Shown here piece after piece: positions 24,149 through 31,059 of a stretch of 34,745 bases of DNA (its first letter is position 1; each line of letters begins with the position of its first letter). Where the stretch lies: NCBI GenBank assembly GCA_945907065.1, contig CAMDSC010000024.1, forward strand, positions 1 to 34,745, in the 5' to 3' direction. Position numbers and translations under genes: made by a program. A model generated the notes under the pieces. The model worked only from the letters and a program-made list of their open reading frames with translations. It searched no databases and was not told the origin of the DNA. This DNA comes from Chitinophaga pinensis (GTDB lineage Bacteria; Bacteroidota; Bacteroidia; NS11-12g; UBA9320).

Positions 24149-26092
24149 TTAACTAAAAAAATTAAACCAAAGTATTTCCAAATCCTTACCAATTGAATAA
24201 TAACGGGCATATTGGTAGTTTAGGTTATTTACGATTTCGGGGTCTTTAATTATAACTTTCATAATTTGAGTTGGATGATAAATGGCATCGTTAATGGAAG
24301 GAAGCAATGCATTTTCGGGTGATGGAGCATAACCAACCCACGATTTTTTTCCTGTAAATACTTCAATAGCTGAATACCATTTGTTGGGTCTGTTTTTAAC
24401 AAATACAAACCAAACAGGGCATAGTAAAATAAGGATTAACGATGAAGCGATATCAAATAATCGCTTTTTTTTAAGGGTTGAAGAATCTGCTAATCTCAGA
24501 GTTATTTCTTCAGTAAAAAATTCCCCAGAACTGTTTTTGGAATGGCTGCCGATTATAAACGAACTGGCTTCGGGAGCTATTTTGTAATGAACTTTTTTAG
24601 GTCCCAGTTTAACCATCCAATTTAAAATGGACTTTGCTGAAATATCTTTACTGCAAAAAACAATTTCTTCAGCTTTAAACACGTTTACAATCTCTTCCAA
24701 TTTTTCACTAGTACCTAGGATATTTATACCCCCTTCGCTTTTTTCGGTAAGTACAAATCCAATAAAGTCTAAACCTTTAGTTGATTTGTTGAGCATTTCA
24801 TAAATACGGTTCGATTCTTCAAATCCACCTACAATTATCAATTTATTGGAGGCTGAATTGGTAAGGCTAAATTTACCTAAACTCAAATAATTGGAAAGTA
24901 AGCGGGTAAATGTCATTTCAATAATGGCCCATAATGAACCTAATATTATCAGTCCTCTCGAAAACCTCAAATTTTCGGGAAACAAACCGTATACAGCAAG
25001 TATTGCAATGGTAGCAATCGCTATTCCCCGAACAATATTTTTTAATAAAAACGGCCTTTCATATCCTTGACTAAAAAAAGTAATGGCCACCCAAAAAGCA
25101 ATGTAATAAGGCACATGAATGGTCATCAACTCTTTGGGGTAATGTTTTATGAATTTTATATGCTCTTCCCAATACGATTTTAGAAAATACATTCCTGCAA
25201 AAAGCAAAACCATATCCAGAAGTGGAAGCCACCAACGGCTAAAAAATCGATAAACCAAAGCCGCAAAAGCTCTTAGATAAATAAAAGTATTTATTAAAAA
25301 AATGAGTAGACTCGATTTACTTCCCTTGTAGTGTTTGCGGGCAAAGATAACCATAGCCTGATAAAATATTTTTACATAATTGGCACTTCCTTTTTTGGTG
25401 CTTTCGCCCTTATAATGGATAATAGAAGTTTCGGGGAAATAGTAATTTTTATATCCACCCTTTATAATCCGGTAGGATAGGTCAATGTCTTCACCATACA
25501 TAAAAAAGGCCTCATCCAACAAACCTACTTTTTCTAAAGCTTCGCGCCTCATAAACATATATGCACCAGCCAAAACCTCAACTTCATTCGTTTCATTTTC
25601 AGGCAAAAATCCCAAATGATAGCGTCCAAACTTTTTGGATTTTGGAAACACTTTATTTAACCCGAACATTTTATAAAGGGCAACTTCAGGTGTTGGCAAT
25701 CCACGTTTAGACTCAGGTAAAAAATGGCCACTGCCATCTACCATTCTCACACCCAAAGCTCCTGCATCGGAATGGTTATCCATAAAAGCGATGCACTTTA
25801 AAAAACTGTCTTCTTCAACTACTGTATCTGGATTTAACAGAAGAATATATTCGCCTTTGGATACCTTAATGGCTTGATTATTAGCTACCGAAAAACCGGT
25901 ATTTAGAGAATTGGCAATCAGATTTACCCAATCAAATTTTTGGTTGACCATTTCCACACTACCATCTACCGAGTTATTATCAACCACCCAAACTTCACCA
26001 TCAATCCCTATCATTGCCTTTTGAACCGCCTTAAGGCATTGCTCCAAAAAGTATTTTACATTGTAGTTAACAATAATGACCGATAGTTTCAC
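24149..26092 (-). CDS. GT2 glycosyltransferase fused to a degenerate sugar-transferase-like region
   Basis: A 647-residue membrane enzyme. The N-terminal GT2 domain (about 1-230) has S-V-I-I-V-N-Y-N, D-N-N-S at 38-41, N-P-D-T at 87-90 and the acidic G-E-D-I-D near 200; it is a rhamnosyltransferase-like GT-A fold. Four or five membrane segments follow (about 250-400). Next is a Rossmann-like part (about 415-545, I-I-V-G-G-F-E) resembling the CoA_binding_3 region of WcaJ-type enzymes. Last is a K-R-L-F-D-I-A-S-S-L-I hydrophobic helix like that of polyprenyl-phosphate sugar transferases, but without their catalytic core. The start is GTG 26092: the longer ORF (to 26224) contains a TAGTTTTG box and overlaps the rimP promoter. 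It probably acts in surface polysaccharide synthesis. Confidence 0.85.
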   Translation of the reverse strand: MKLSVIIVNYNVKYFLEQCLKAVQKAMIGIDGEVWVVDNNSVDGSVEMVNQKFDWVNLIANSLNTGFSVANNQAIKVSKGEYILLLNPDTVVEEDSFLKCIAFMDNHSDAGALGVRMVDGSGHFLPESKRGLPTPEVALYKMFGLNKVFPKSKKFGRYHLGFLPENETNEVEVLAGAYMFMRREALEKVGLLDEAFFMYGEDIDLSYRIIKGGYKNYYFPETSIIHYKGESTKKGSANYVKIFYQAMVIFARKHYKGSKSSLLIFLINTFIYLRAFAALVYRFFSRWWLPLLDMVLLFAGMYFLKSYWEEHIKFIKHYPKELMTIHVPYYIAFWVAITFFSQGYERPFLLKNIVRGIAIATIAILAVYGLFPENLRFSRGLIILGSLWAIIEMTFTRLLSNYLSLGKFSLTNSASNKLIIVGGFEESNRIYEMLNKSTKGLDFIGFVLTEKSEGGINILGTSEKLEEIVNVFKAEEIVFCSKDISAKSILNWMVKLGPKKVHYKIAPEASSFIIGSHSKNSSGEFFTEEITLRLADSSTLKKKRLFDIASSLILILLCPVWFVFVKNRPNKWYSAIEVFTGKKSWVGYAPSPENALLPSINDAIYHPTQIMKVIIKDPEIVNNLNYQYARYYSIGKDLEILWFNFFS

Positions 26093-26116
26093 AAAAAGAA
26101 TATAGTGGTTGGCTTG

Positions 26117-26124
26117 CAAAACTA
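26117..26124 (-). promoter_or_regulatory. -7 box of the GT2 fusion gene
   Basis: Reads TAGTTTTG on the minus strand, 24 bases before the GTG start. It lies inside the longest possible ORF, which supports the shorter start. Confidence 0.5.
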
Positions 26125-26217
26125 TAAAATAGTATGGATTAGAAAGTATATTTAATTGAAATCCTTTGATTCTATTGCTTTTGTTATATGAAATATTCAA
26201 TAAATTGTAGTACTCCT

Positions 26218-26248
26218 TTTGCATAAATTAAATAAAAGGCTATATTTG
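26218..26248 (+). promoter_or_regulatory. Promoter of rimP-nusA-infB
   Basis: TTTG at 26218-26221, a 19-base spacer and TATATTTG at 26241-26248: a full match to the Bacteroidota pattern. The expected transcript start is near 26255, giving a leader of about 47 bases. Confidence 0.7.
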
Positions 26249-26267
26249 CAGCGAAATAGAGGATGTT

Positions 26268-26293
26268 AAAGAGGGGATAGATTCCCCTTTTTT
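26268..26293 (+). terminator. Terminator-like hairpin in the rimP leader (possible attenuator)
   Basis: Stem GGGGA (26273-26277) with TCCCC (26283-26287), extended by A-T and G-T pairs, around the loop TAGAT, and followed at once by six T's. It lies downstream of the promoter and nine bases before the rimP ATG. The upstream gene is on the other strand, so it does not end any plus-strand gene. Confidence 0.6.
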
Positions 26294-26301
26294 GTTGAAA
26301 T

Positions 26302-26763
26302 ATGGTTAATCTAGTATCAAAATTAAAAGACTGGTCAACTGATTACCTGCAAGGGTCGGATGAGTTTTTGGTAGATATTGAAAATAAGCCGGGTTCCAGC
26401 AAATACAGAGTGGTAGTAGATGGAATTGAAAGTATTACGATAAAGCGATGTGCAATGTTAAGCCGTTATTTATCAAAGCAAATGGATGAGGATGAAAGTA
26501 TAGATGAGGATGATTATTTTACGTTTGAAGTATCATCACCGGGAGCTGACAGGCCTTTGAAACTGCAAAAGCAATATTACAAACACATTGGAAGACAACT
26601 GGAAGTTGAAACTTTGGATGGAGAAAAAAGTACAGGGAGTTTGATAAGTGTAGACGAAGATAAAATTATTATAGAAGTAGAGGTTTCTAAAAAAGAGACA
26701 GCTGCTAAAGATATTGAATTTAAAAATATTAAAGAAGCAAACGTTATTATTTCATTTAAATAA
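26302..26763 (+). CDS. rimP: Ribosome maturation factor RimP
   Basis: A 153-residue cytoplasmic protein needed for maturation of the 30S subunit. The N-terminal domain (about 1-85) has the L-V-D-I-E and I-T-I-K-R-C-A-M-L-S-R-Y-L pattern. The family hallmark, F-E-V-S-S-P-G-A-D-R-P-L, is near residue 73, and a C-terminal SH3-like domain starts near 90. Length is normal. It is the first gene of the conserved rimP-nusA-infB order, with its own well-formed promoter and a terminator-like hairpin in the leader; nusA follows after 11 bases. Confidence 0.95.
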   Translation: MVNLVSKLKDWSTDYLQGSDEFLVDIENKPGSSKYRVVVDGIESITIKRCAMLSRYLSKQMDEDESIDEDDYFTFEVSSPGADRPLKLQKQYYKHIGRQLEVETLDGEKSTGSLISVDEDKIIIEVEVSKKETAAKDIEFKNIKEANVIISFK

Positions 26764-26774
26764 AGAATAAAAAG

Positions 26775-28013
26775 ATGAGTTTAGGAATTGGATTAGTTGA
26801 ATCGTTTTCGGAGTTCAAGGAATTTAAAAACATTGACCGTGCCACCATGATTCGCGTTATGGAAGACGTGTTTCGCAGCATGCTAAAAAGACGCTATGGT
26901 GACGATAGCAATTTTGATGTAATTGTGAATGACAAAACGGGGGATGTGGAAATTTACCAACGCCGCCTTATTGTGGACGAGGGAGAAGTAGAAAACGATA
27001 TTTCAGAAATTGCATTATCGGATGCCCAAAAGATGGAGCCCGATTTTGAACTGAATGAAGAAACTTATGAAGAAGTAACTATGGAAGCTTTTGGTCGTCG
27101 GTCTATCCTAGCAGCTCGTCAAACCTTAATTTCAAGAATACTTGAACTTGAGAAAGACGAAGTTTACAAGAAATATAAAGACCGAGTTGGTGAAATTATT
27201 ACCGGTGAAGTTTACCAAATATGGAAAAAGGAATTGATGGTATTGGACGATGAAGGAAATGAGTTGATATTGCCTAAAGGCGAAATGATACCTCGTGACT
27301 TTTATAAAAAAGGCGATACTTTAAAAGCCATCGTTTTGCGTGTGGAAATGAATAATGCTTTACCAAAAATAGTTTTATCACGTACTGCTCCAATGTTTCT
27401 TGAACGATTATTTGAACTGGAAGTGCCAGAAATATTGGATGGATTAATAACCATTAAAAAAGTAGTGCGTGAACCTGGAGAAAGAGCCAAAGTAGCTGTA
27501 GAAAGTTACGATGATAGAATTGATCCTGTTGGTGCATGTGTGGGTATGAAAGGTTCAAGAATTCATGGTATAGTAAGGGAATTGCGCAATGAAAATATTG
27601 ATGTGATAAACTATACAACCAACACTCAATTGTTTATTACTAGAGCTTTAAACCCTGCTAAAGTATCATCTATCAATATTGATGAAAACTCTAAACGTGT
27701 TGCGGTTTATTTACCATCTGATCAGGTTTCGTTAGCCATTGGAAAAGGTGGATTTAATATAAAACTTGCAGGTAAACTTGCAGGTTATGAAATAGATGTT
27801 TACCGTGAAGATTCAGAAGATGAATACGATGTAGATCTTGAAGAATTTAACGATGAAATAGATGAATGGATTATTGAGGAGCTAAAAACTATTGGGTTGG
27901 ATACGGCCAAGAGTGTTTTAGCCACGTCAAATGAAGATTTGGTTCGTCGGACTGAATTGGAAGAAGAAACAATTGTTGAGATTAAAAAAATATTGGAAGC
28001 TGAGTTTAGCTAA
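26775..28013 (+). CDS. nusA: Transcription termination/antitermination protein NusA
   Basis: A 412-residue RNA polymerase-binding factor that governs pausing, termination and antitermination. The N-terminal RNAP-binding domain (about 1-135) is followed by an S1 domain (about 138-200, G-E-I-I-T-G-E-V). KH1 and KH2 follow (about 205-350), with V-G-M-K-G-S-R and I-G-K-G-G-F-N as RNA-binding loops. An acidic C-terminal segment (about 350-412) ends in a helix-hairpin-helix-like stretch (L-K-T-I-G-L-D-T-A). It lacks the two long acidic repeats of the E. coli protein, as in most bacteria. It lies in an operon between rimP and infB. Confidence 0.96.
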   Translation: MSLGIGLVESFSEFKEFKNIDRATMIRVMEDVFRSMLKRRYGDDSNFDVIVNDKTGDVEIYQRRLIVDEGEVENDISEIALSDAQKMEPDFELNEETYEEVTMEAFGRRSILAARQTLISRILELEKDEVYKKYKDRVGEIITGEVYQIWKKELMVLDDEGNELILPKGEMIPRDFYKKGDTLKAIVLRVEMNNALPKIVLSRTAPMFLERLFELEVPEILDGLITIKKVVREPGERAKVAVESYDDRIDPVGACVGMKGSRIHGIVRELRNENIDVINYTTNTQLFITRALNPAKVSSINIDENSKRVAVYLPSDQVSLAIGKGGFNIKLAGKLAGYEIDVYREDSEDEYDVDLEEFNDEIDEWIIEELKTIGLDTAKSVLATSNEDLVRRTELEEETIVEIKKILEAEFS

Positions 28014-28191: not shown

Positions 28192-31059
28192 ATGCCAGAA
28201 GAAAAATCATACAGGTTAGCCAAAGTAGCTGGAGAGCTTGGGGTAGGTGTACATACAATAGTAGAACACTTGCAAAAGAAAGGTGTGAAATTGGAAGACA
28301 CCAAACCCAATGCAAAAATTGACCAGGCTGCATACCAAATCCTTCTGCAGGATTTTCAGTCTGATAAAAAAACAAAAGATCAGTCGAAAACCATCGAGGT
28401 TCAGATGAAACGTGATAGGGAACAACATCTTGAAAATGTTTCTTCAAAACCAAAACCCGCTGCTGATGAAGTGGAAGAAGATACTTTTTTTGTAAAAGAT
28501 CTGGGTTCTACCAAAAAACCAATTTCGAGTAAGGACGAAAAACCGCAGGAAATAATAGAAGAAAAACCTGTAGAACCCGCAACAGAAAGACCCAAAGTAG
28601 AAGGTCTTAAAATTTTGGGTAAAATTGATTTATCTAAAAAACCTGCAAAACCTGCAGAACCGATTGTAGTAAACGAAGAAAAACAGGAAATTGTAATTGA
28701 AGAAAAACCCATCATAAAGGTTGAAGAAAAACCAGAAATAATTACCAAGGTTATAGTTGAGGACATACCCGAAATAGCTGAGCAGGCAATAATTATAGAA
28801 GCCAAGCCGAAGGTTGAAGAAGTTGTGATAGTTGAGGAGGAAGTTGCAATAGAAAAAGTTGAATTAAAAGTTGAAACAATTGAAGATACGGAAGATGAGG
28901 ATAAAGTAATAAAAGCCAATGCCCCTAAGTTAAAAGGCTTATCTGTAATGGGCAAAATTGTGATACCAGATCCTATTGTAAGGAAAAAGGTAGTAAACGA
29001 GGATGCTCAAAAGAAAAAACGCAAACGAAAATTAACTGCAGAAAAGATTGACACCAAAGCTGTAGGAAATCAATTTGTAAAAAAACCTGAACTTAAACCT
29101 GACCATAAACCAGCCCCTGGAACCCGCCCTAAAAAGGATGAAGTAAGTGGCAAACAGGTTCAAGAGCAAATGAAGCAAACCTTTGCTAAAATTGGTACTC
29201 AAAAAAATAATGCTCAAGGTGGAAGAATAAGACAACAAGCAAGAAAAGATCGAAAATCAAAATTCCTTGCACACCAGGAAGAGCAAGTAGTTAGGCGTGA
29301 AATTCAGAGCAAAATAATACAAGTAACAGAATATGTTACAGCCAATGAATTAGCTTCATTAATGAATGTGAAGGTGAATGATATTATCACTACCTGTTTT
29401 TCATTAGGCATGATGATTTCTATAAATCAACGATTGGATGGTGAAGTCATTAACTTATTGGCCGAGAATTTTGGTTATGAAGTTGAATTTGTTTCAGCGG
29501 ATGTGCAAGAAGATATTATTGAAGAAATAGACGACCCTAAAGATCTTTTAGAACGACCTCCAATTGTAACAATTATGGGTCACGTGGATCATGGAAAAAC
29601 ATCGTTACTTGATTATATACGCAGCACCAATGTGATAGCAGGTGAAGCAGGTGGAATAACACAGCACGTTGCTGCTTATGAGGTAACAATGGCCGATGGA
29701 AAAAACATCACATTTGTTGATACTCCGGGTCACGAAGCTTTTACAGCGATGCGTGCAAGGGGAGCCAAAACTACAGATATTGTAATTGTTGTAATAGCTG
29801 CTGATGATAGTGTAATGCCACAAACAAAGGAGGCTATTGCACATGCTCAGGCAGCACAAGTGCCAATAATTTTTGCTTATAATAAAATTGATAAAGATGG
29901 GGCAAATGCTGATAAAATAAGAGAGCAATTATCTGCCATGAGCATATTGGTTGAAGAGTGGGGTGGTAAATATCAAAGTCAGGAAATTTCAGCCAAAAAA
30001 GGACTCAATATTGATAAACTTCTCGAAAAAGTAATACTTGAATCTGAATTACTTGAACTCAAGGCTAATCCTAATAAGCGAGCCAAAGGAACTGTAATGG
30101 AAACGCATCTTGATAAAGGAAAAGGAGTAGTAGCTACACTTTTGGTTCAAGAAGGCACTCTTAAAGTTGGTGATTTTGTACTTGGAGGAAGCCATTATGG
30201 TAGAGTAAGAGCTTTATTAAACGAAAGAGGACAACGAATAACTAAGGCTGGTCCATCTACACCAGTAAGTGTTCTTGGTTTTCAAGGAGCACCGCAAGCT
30301 GGAGATATTTTTAATGTATTTGAAGATGAATCCAGTGCCAAGGACATTGCCAACAAACGGACTCAACTGCAGCGGGAACAAGGAATCAGAGCTTCTAAGC
30401 ATATAACCTTAGAAGAAATTGGACGCCGATTGGCTGTAGGTTCGTTCAAAGAATTGAAGCTTATTGTAAAAGGAGATGTGGATGGCTCGGTAGAGGCATT
30501 GAGCGATTCGTTATTAAAATTATCGAAAGAAGAAGTTCAGGTAAGTGTAATTCATAAAGGGGTTGGACAAATTACCGAATCCGATGTATTGTTGGCCTCC
30601 GCTTCGGATGCAATAATAATAGGGTTCCAGGTAAGGCCTGCTCAAAGTGCTAAAAAATTAGCGGAAGATGAGGAAATAGAAATCAAAACATACTCAGTAA
30701 TTTATCATGCTATTGAGGAAATAAAAGCTGCCATTGAAGGTATGCTTGACCCTGAATATGTGGAAGAAATTACTGCTAATATTGAAGTTCGTGATGTGTT
30801 TAAAATTACCAAAGTTGGTACTGTGGCAGGAGCTTATGTGTTGGATGGAAAAGTAGAGCGAAGCAATAAAGTACGTATTATACGCGATGGTGTGGTGGTT
30901 CACGAAGGTGAAATTGACACTTTAAAACGTTTTAAAGACGATATGAAAGAAGTTTCTAAAGGGTATGAATGTGGTGTTCAGATTAAAAATTATAACGACC
31001 TTAGAATTGGTGATATTTTAGAAACCTTTAAGCAAGTAGAGGTGAAACGAAAAGGGTAG
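28192..31059 (+). CDS. infB: Translation initiation factor IF-2
   Basis: A 955-residue GTPase that brings initiator tRNA to the 30S subunit and promotes subunit joining. The first 50 residues form the IF2_N-type helical domain ([12 protein letters not shown]). A low-complexity Lys/Glu/Val/Pro linker follows (about 70-370), then a second N-terminal module near 385. The G domain begins at residue 463 with G-H-V-D-H-G-K-T (G1), followed by G-G-I-T-Q-H (G2), D-T-P-G-H-E (G3), N-K-I-D (G4) and S-A-K-K-G (G5). Domains II to IV complete the protein. A 178-base spacer with two hairpins separates it from nusA. Confidence 0.97.

Follow-up and report, generated by a model that had tools for sequence, protein, structure and literature searches.

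Why should a structure resembling an intrinsic terminator stand at the head of the rimP-nusA-infB operon, between the promoter and the first start codon? In the window, by which we mean the whole 34,745-nucleotide stretch of Chitinophaga pinensis DNA that was analyzed, the three genes follow one another on the plus strand: rimP at 26302..26763, with its ATG at 26302 (Pfam RimP_N, 3.1e-11; RimP C-terminal SH3 domain, 2.4e-12), nusA at 26775..28013 (NusA_N, 2.6e-30; KH_5, 9.6e-29), and infB at 28192..31059 (IF-2, 7.7e-41). Upstream, on the minus strand, an open reading frame with domain matches to family 2-like glycosyltransferases occupies 24149..26224 in its longest form; its true start is probably nearer 26092, since the domain match begins only at residue 48. 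The upstream neighbor is divergent, and, as the earlier note had observed, no plus-strand gene ends directly 5′ of the leader.

A Bacteroidota-type promoter is recognizable on the plus strand as TTTG at 26218-26221, a spacer of 19 bases, and TATATTTG at 26241-26248, placing the probable start of rimP transcription at about 26252-26255. Between this promoter and the ATG, the earlier note had described a GGGGA/TCCCC hairpin followed by six T's, and the sequence carries these elements on the plus strand: GGGGA at 26273-26277, the loop TAGAT at 26278-26282, TCCCC at 26283-26287, and the T's, the U-tract of an intrinsic terminator, at 26288-26293, ending just 8 nt before the start codon. The extent of the stem needs correction. 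The terminator-like hairpin, as assigned from its fold and its conservation, spans 26268-26292 and has 10 pairs (26268-26277 with 26283-26292) rather than the core alone, because A-rich bases 5′ of the G's pair with the T-run. Folded by itself, the 35-nt hairpin segment has an energy of -13.6 kcal/mol and a z score of -4.14, with 0 of 200 shuffles equally good; in a 72-nt context the z score of the same hairpin is -1.32, and 19 of 200 shuffles fold equally well. Terminator-like matches are common in this AT-rich sequence (a scan of 14.7 kb gave 17 sites, against 10.1 with a standard deviation of 3.2 in shuffles), so that a single hairpin by itself proves nothing, and what raises this site above chance is its position and its conservation. 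The sigma-70-style match at 26218-26246 scores 9 of 12 and is one of 48 such sites where 53.5 are expected, the Bacteroidota promoter lying outside the model used for that scan.

Conservation was assessed on leaders drawn from relatives, from 80 named nusA loci, and from a phylum sample whose upstream regions, part of those available, comprised 30 loci plus 75 spread over genera. rimP was detected in the genomes of 91 of 97 relatives, and 197 of the 198 genomes in the phylum sample have nusA. With a RimP profile, rimP was recognized at 269 of 275 loci; the six with no RimP open reading frame (L106, L154, L253, L260, L266, and L269) were left out, and removal of 12 duplicates, one leader with N's, and one that was too short gave 255 distinct Bacteroidota leaders. 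When the 110 nt immediately before rimP were examined by script, 250 of these 255 had a terminator-like hairpin, a count that, since the leaders are related by descent, does not amount to 250 independent events. In 20 rounds of dinucleotide shuffling the same rule found 18 to 35 hairpins per 255, and at control places it found 9 in 196 stretches before nusA and 16 in 253 stretches further upstream. Under a strict rule of at least four G-C pairs in the hairpin, the figures are 238 of 255 rimP leaders, 0 of 196, and 4 of 253. All five leaders missed by the script show a hairpin by eye: in L085 the start codon is misassigned in a broken frame, L193 has a plain hairpin outside the stem rule of the script, and in L208, L224, and L226 the hairpin lies partly or wholly beyond the 110 nt examined. 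The check on relatives that the earlier note had called for thus finds the hairpin kept.

The arrangement around the stem is that of a terminator in a leader. At least six of the eight bases after the stem core are T in 230 of 250 leaders; in the genus of the window itself, 7 of 7 leaders place the last G-C base 13 to 15 nt from the start codon and have T at seven of the next eight positions. The spacing between the last G-C base of the stem and the start codon varies, over the groups taken together, between 10 and 81 nt or more, a spread that suits a terminator and not a clamp on a ribosome site at a fixed position. A TAnnTTT box precedes the stem by no more than 60 nt in 227 of 250 leaders, compared with 23 of 253 control stretches, which places the hairpin in the leader, after the promoter. 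By a permissive test, 115 of 192 testable leaders have the end of a same-strand open frame of at least 90 codons no more than 250 nt upstream; an end-of-gene role is possible in the genomes of those 115, although 98 of the 115 have a promoter-like box just 5′ of the stem. Termination in the rimP leader, put forward in the earlier note as a candidate for attenuation, is well supported by this comparison of leaders. That the hairpin terminates transcription in this organism, and with what efficiency, is inferred.

We consider it likely that the leader is a minimal attenuator through which NusA, by aiding termination, limits expression of its own operon. RNA polymerase would leave the promoter, make a leader of about 50 nt, and reach, at the T-run, an intrinsic terminator that has no competing fold. 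Some of the complexes would stop there, releasing a short RNA of about 40 nt, while the remainder would transcribe on through rimP-nusA-infB. NusA binds RNA polymerase and promotes termination at hairpins, so a higher NusA level would increase the share of complexes that stop and lower the amount of operon mRNA; this negative feedback would keep NusA, together with RimP and IF2, near a set point. The choice of NusA as the presumptive effector is based on the retention of the element with nusA in a family described below (f33) and on precedent from Bacillus subtilis.

A search for a competing fold agrees with the earlier note, in which no antiterminator pairing had been obvious. Just 1 of 207 leaders can form at least four Watson-Crick pairs with the 5′ arm, versus 81 of 4,140 shuffles. 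With G-U pairs allowed, at least five pairs can form in 54 of 207 leaders, versus 586 of 4,140 shuffles; this is above expectation and speaks against a leader with no rival fold, although the 54 cases are short stretches, nearly all resting on G-U pairs, that are common to related genomes. The median distance from the probable transcription start to the stem is about 16 nt. An antiterminator or riboswitch was rejected, as there are neither Watson-Crick partners nor room for one.

In Escherichia coli, NusA represses its own rimP-nusA operon, and a leader attenuator before rimP-nusA-infB is a kind of element already known from other bacteria. The rimP-leader of Naville and Gautheret (2010, PMC2965389) was the most frequent attenuator of their study; as the paper presents it, it has no antiterminator, and NusA was proposed as the best candidate for the effector. 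It resembles the present element in being a short terminator with a T-run right before rimP-nusA-infB, as found here and in relatives, in its G-rich 5′ arm and C-rich 3′ arm, and in having no visible antiterminator. The motif given there, GGGc(...)gCCC, shares GGG and CCC with GGGGA/TCCCC but not the c and g, and Bacteroidota stems also depart from it in varying phylum-wide, down to C-rich 5′ arms (28 of 250); “Bacteroid” does not occur in the main text of that paper (PMC2965389). At gathering scores Rfam has no family in the window, so the rimP family RF01770 falls below its threshold there. Between 26000 and 26500 there are four weak, unrelated Rfam matches, RF01770 not among them, and a search of the whole genome with RF01770 at an E value of 10 or better gave 33 matches, none at the rimP leader.

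In Bacillus subtilis, NusA regulates itself: it stimulates an intrinsic terminator in the leader and so reduces transcription of the gene that follows (PMC12288461). The likeness lies in a leader terminator in front of a nusA-carrying transcript, here and in 7 of 7 genomes of the rimP-less family f33; the differences are that the feedback is experimental in B. subtilis (PMC12288461) and inferred here, and that the B. subtilis leader is 180 nt long (PMC2965389), compared with about 50 nt. Several Gammaproteobacteria are reported to have a second, tandem terminator with an antiterminator (PMC2965389), an arrangement not seen here. Within the Bacteroidota, a structured 5′ element upstream of rimP in Flavobacterium psychrophilum, kept in other genera of the Flavobacteriaceae, is described as probably cis-regulatory and as having no Rfam hit (PMC9723704); we liken it to the present element by its description rather than its sequence. 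The same paper gives TAnnTTTG as the promoter consensus (PMC9723704). PMC8060035 makes no mention of the nusA operon, autoregulation, ylxS, rimP, or feedback, and “nusA” is absent from the main text of PMC7366714. In the part of the literature covered, we found no description of a NusA-responsive rimP leader in Bacteroidota; NusA control seems little studied in this phylum, which dominates the human gut and many waters.

These precedents bear on the possibility that the leader terminator is a constant brake, cutting transcription of the operon by a fixed share with no feedback from NusA. Such a brake would be in keeping with the strength of the hairpin here (10 pairs, six T's, and -13.6 kcal/mol), as strong terminators may not need NusA, and with the fact that neither a sensor nor an antiterminator was seen. 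The known cases involve feedback, however, as established in B. subtilis (PMC12288461) and, by report, in E. coli (PMC2965389); moreover, the element follows nusA, the gene for a termination factor, and the long upkeep of a mere brake would be odd where a weaker promoter would do. We regard a constant brake as unlikely.

That the element accompanies nusA is suggested by the family f33, which separates the candidates by removing RimP as a necessary partner. Three f33 loci have a hairpin and T-run before nusA and no rimP there. In the order that contains this family, a RimP_N match is found in 33 of 41 genomes, and the eight genomes with no match are all seven of f33 plus G294; a search for RimP in three of the seven f33 genomes at E values up to 10 returned only sub-cut-off matches. 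A hairpin with a T-run nevertheless lies 21 to 95 nt 5′ of the nusA start in 7 of 7 f33 genomes, and in all seven an open reading frame carrying the Pfam domains IF-2 and IF2_N comes after nusA. The pattern probably reflects a single loss of rimP and so counts as one strong case, not seven. Since the hairpin is kept in f33 where RimP_N is not matched, RimP is not a needed partner there, and NusA or IF2 could be; to judge from these gene arrangements, the element follows nusA and not rimP. RimP as the effector was rejected on the same ground, that the element remains where no RimP_N match exists. This lineage, which lacks a recognizable RimP in an order where the protein is otherwise almost universal, is represented by L260, L266, L269, L304, L305, L308, L313, L316, L321, and L343, and the f33 genome at L343 has an additional, separate gene-end terminator upstream.

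A sensed product other than NusA, namely IF2 or RimP, or translation of the leader junction, might instead set the level of termination. IF2 draws some support from infB, which stays with nusA in 7 of 7 f33 genomes, but we know of no role for IF2 in termination, and RimP is excluded in f33 by the element's presence with no RimP_N match. Control by translation would fit the placing of the T-run just 8 nt before the ATG, within possible reach of an early ribosome or of S1, although the distance to the start codon varies widely among leaders. Taken together, these alternatives to NusA seem improbable to us. In genome G260 of family f37 (L299:1450-2022 and L253), rimP and nusA lie apart, and the hairpins near them come after the stop codons of other genes or are imperfect. 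The nusA gene of G260 comes after a gene whose product resembles, by eye, a DinB-type polymerase.

Over the widest range, the structure of the element is kept rather than its letters. Arms of the GGGGA or GGGGAC type prevail in much of the window's own class; other families have GAGGGGAC, AGGGAAC types, GTGAGCG-type stems, and C-rich 5′ arms. The 5′ arm is G-rich in 219 of 250 leaders, C-rich in 28, and equal in 3. The script lists 69 arm pairs, which were chosen because they pair, and for some of them (e.g., L121 and L152) a weaker stem seems to have been picked instead of the main one. For a covariation test independent of arm picking, 146 leaders were anchored by the letters GGGG and CCCC only; this anchoring replaced a MAFFT alignment of 32 family hairpins, in which the arms fell out of register because of loop length. 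Both next inner pairs are possible in 125 of the 146 anchored leaders, whereas 1,000 shuffles gave 94.8 on average and never more than 103. Counting only the 100 distinct inner sequences, both pair in 83 (shuffled mean, 59.2; highest, 69), with the qualification that kinship among the sequences weakens this shuffle control.

Two clades have distinctive forms of the element. In the genus g14, the hairpin is kept and the T-run is broken to TCA[AC]TTGTT or TTAATTGTT in 15 of 15 genomes, with a tail ending in TTGTT in every one (L052, L063, L064, L074-L077, L080, L081, L090-L092, and L094-L096). This break weakens the reading of the g14 element as a plain intrinsic terminator. In B. subtilis, a broken T-run makes terminators NusA-dependent, and the g14 hairpin could be a NusA-dependent terminator or could equally have another job. 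The same-strand reading upstream in g14 (L052, L063, L064, L074, L077, and others) ends in low-complexity sequence rich in Gly, Ser, and Thr codons. A two-storey hairpin with a conserved internal loop is seen in 34 of the 255 leaders, every one of them from the sample of the sister family f2; the internal loop is possibly a protein-binding feature. The f2 form, GGGGAC-AA-GC-loop-GC-A-GTCCCC (e.g., L025, L042, and L086), is more elaborate than a plain terminator.

The element might alternatively act after transcription, as a 5′ hairpin followed by U-rich sequence that stabilizes the mRNA or tunes access of the ribosome. The g14 form, with its hairpin retained over a broken T-run and TTGTT in 15 of 15 genomes, and the f2 form (34 of 255 leaders), which exceeds what a terminator needs, would both suit such a role. 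It is, however, difficult to square with the keeping of the T-run in 230 of 250 leaders, with distances to the start codon of 10 to 81 nt or more, and with stem letters that turn over so far that 28 of 250 leaders have a C-rich 5′ arm. We think a post-transcriptional role improbable.

Returning to attenuation by NusA, we offer a bolder version of it tentatively, and with some doubt: the bare hairpin may be the whole sensor of NusA in the elongation complex, kept before nusA across the Bacteroidota for that purpose and retuned in individual clades through its stem letters and T-run. Were this so, g14 would be a naturally NusA-dependent version, and the rimP-less f33 would show that the element belongs to nusA. 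With promoter, hairpin, and start codon within about 85 bases, the element would be among the smallest possible attenuators, and the small size of the leader makes NusA feedback directly testable. New to the record of such leaders are their wide distribution in Bacteroidota, the change of stem letters from clade to clade, the persistence of the element beside nusA once rimP was lost, and a genus (g14) that keeps the hairpin with a broken T-run.

Within its own genome the element is unusual for its place. Of 326 open reading frame starts in the window together with 400 kb of its genome, 22 have a terminator-like hairpin within 110 nt upstream; among the 110 genes with a divergent upstream neighbor, two have one by the loose rule and a single one, the rimP leader, by the strict rule. 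Chance as the origin of the hairpin was rejected on the shuffles and the control places. Neither a chance origin nor a stray bidirectional terminator that protects the divergent glycosyltransferase gene is at all likely: terminator-like matches are indeed common in this sequence (17 found, 10.1 expected), but conservation far above shuffles, with differing upstream neighbors, and the standing of this leader as the sole strong case among 110 comparable genes of its genome argue against both.

The letters of the hairpin recur elsewhere in the genome. AGGGG followed after 3 to 14 bases by CCCCTTTTT (AGGGGN3-14CCCCTTTTT) gives eight matches at six places in the whole genome; at four of the five places other than the rimP site a stop codon is no more than about 100 nt away, and at the fifth it is some 190 nt away, so that the rimP site has the form of a gene-end terminator placed at a gene start. 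A G-rich 5′ arm was rejected as a feature special to the rimP site, since the C-rich form CCCCN3-14GGGGTTTTT is also present in the genome, with six matches at four places.
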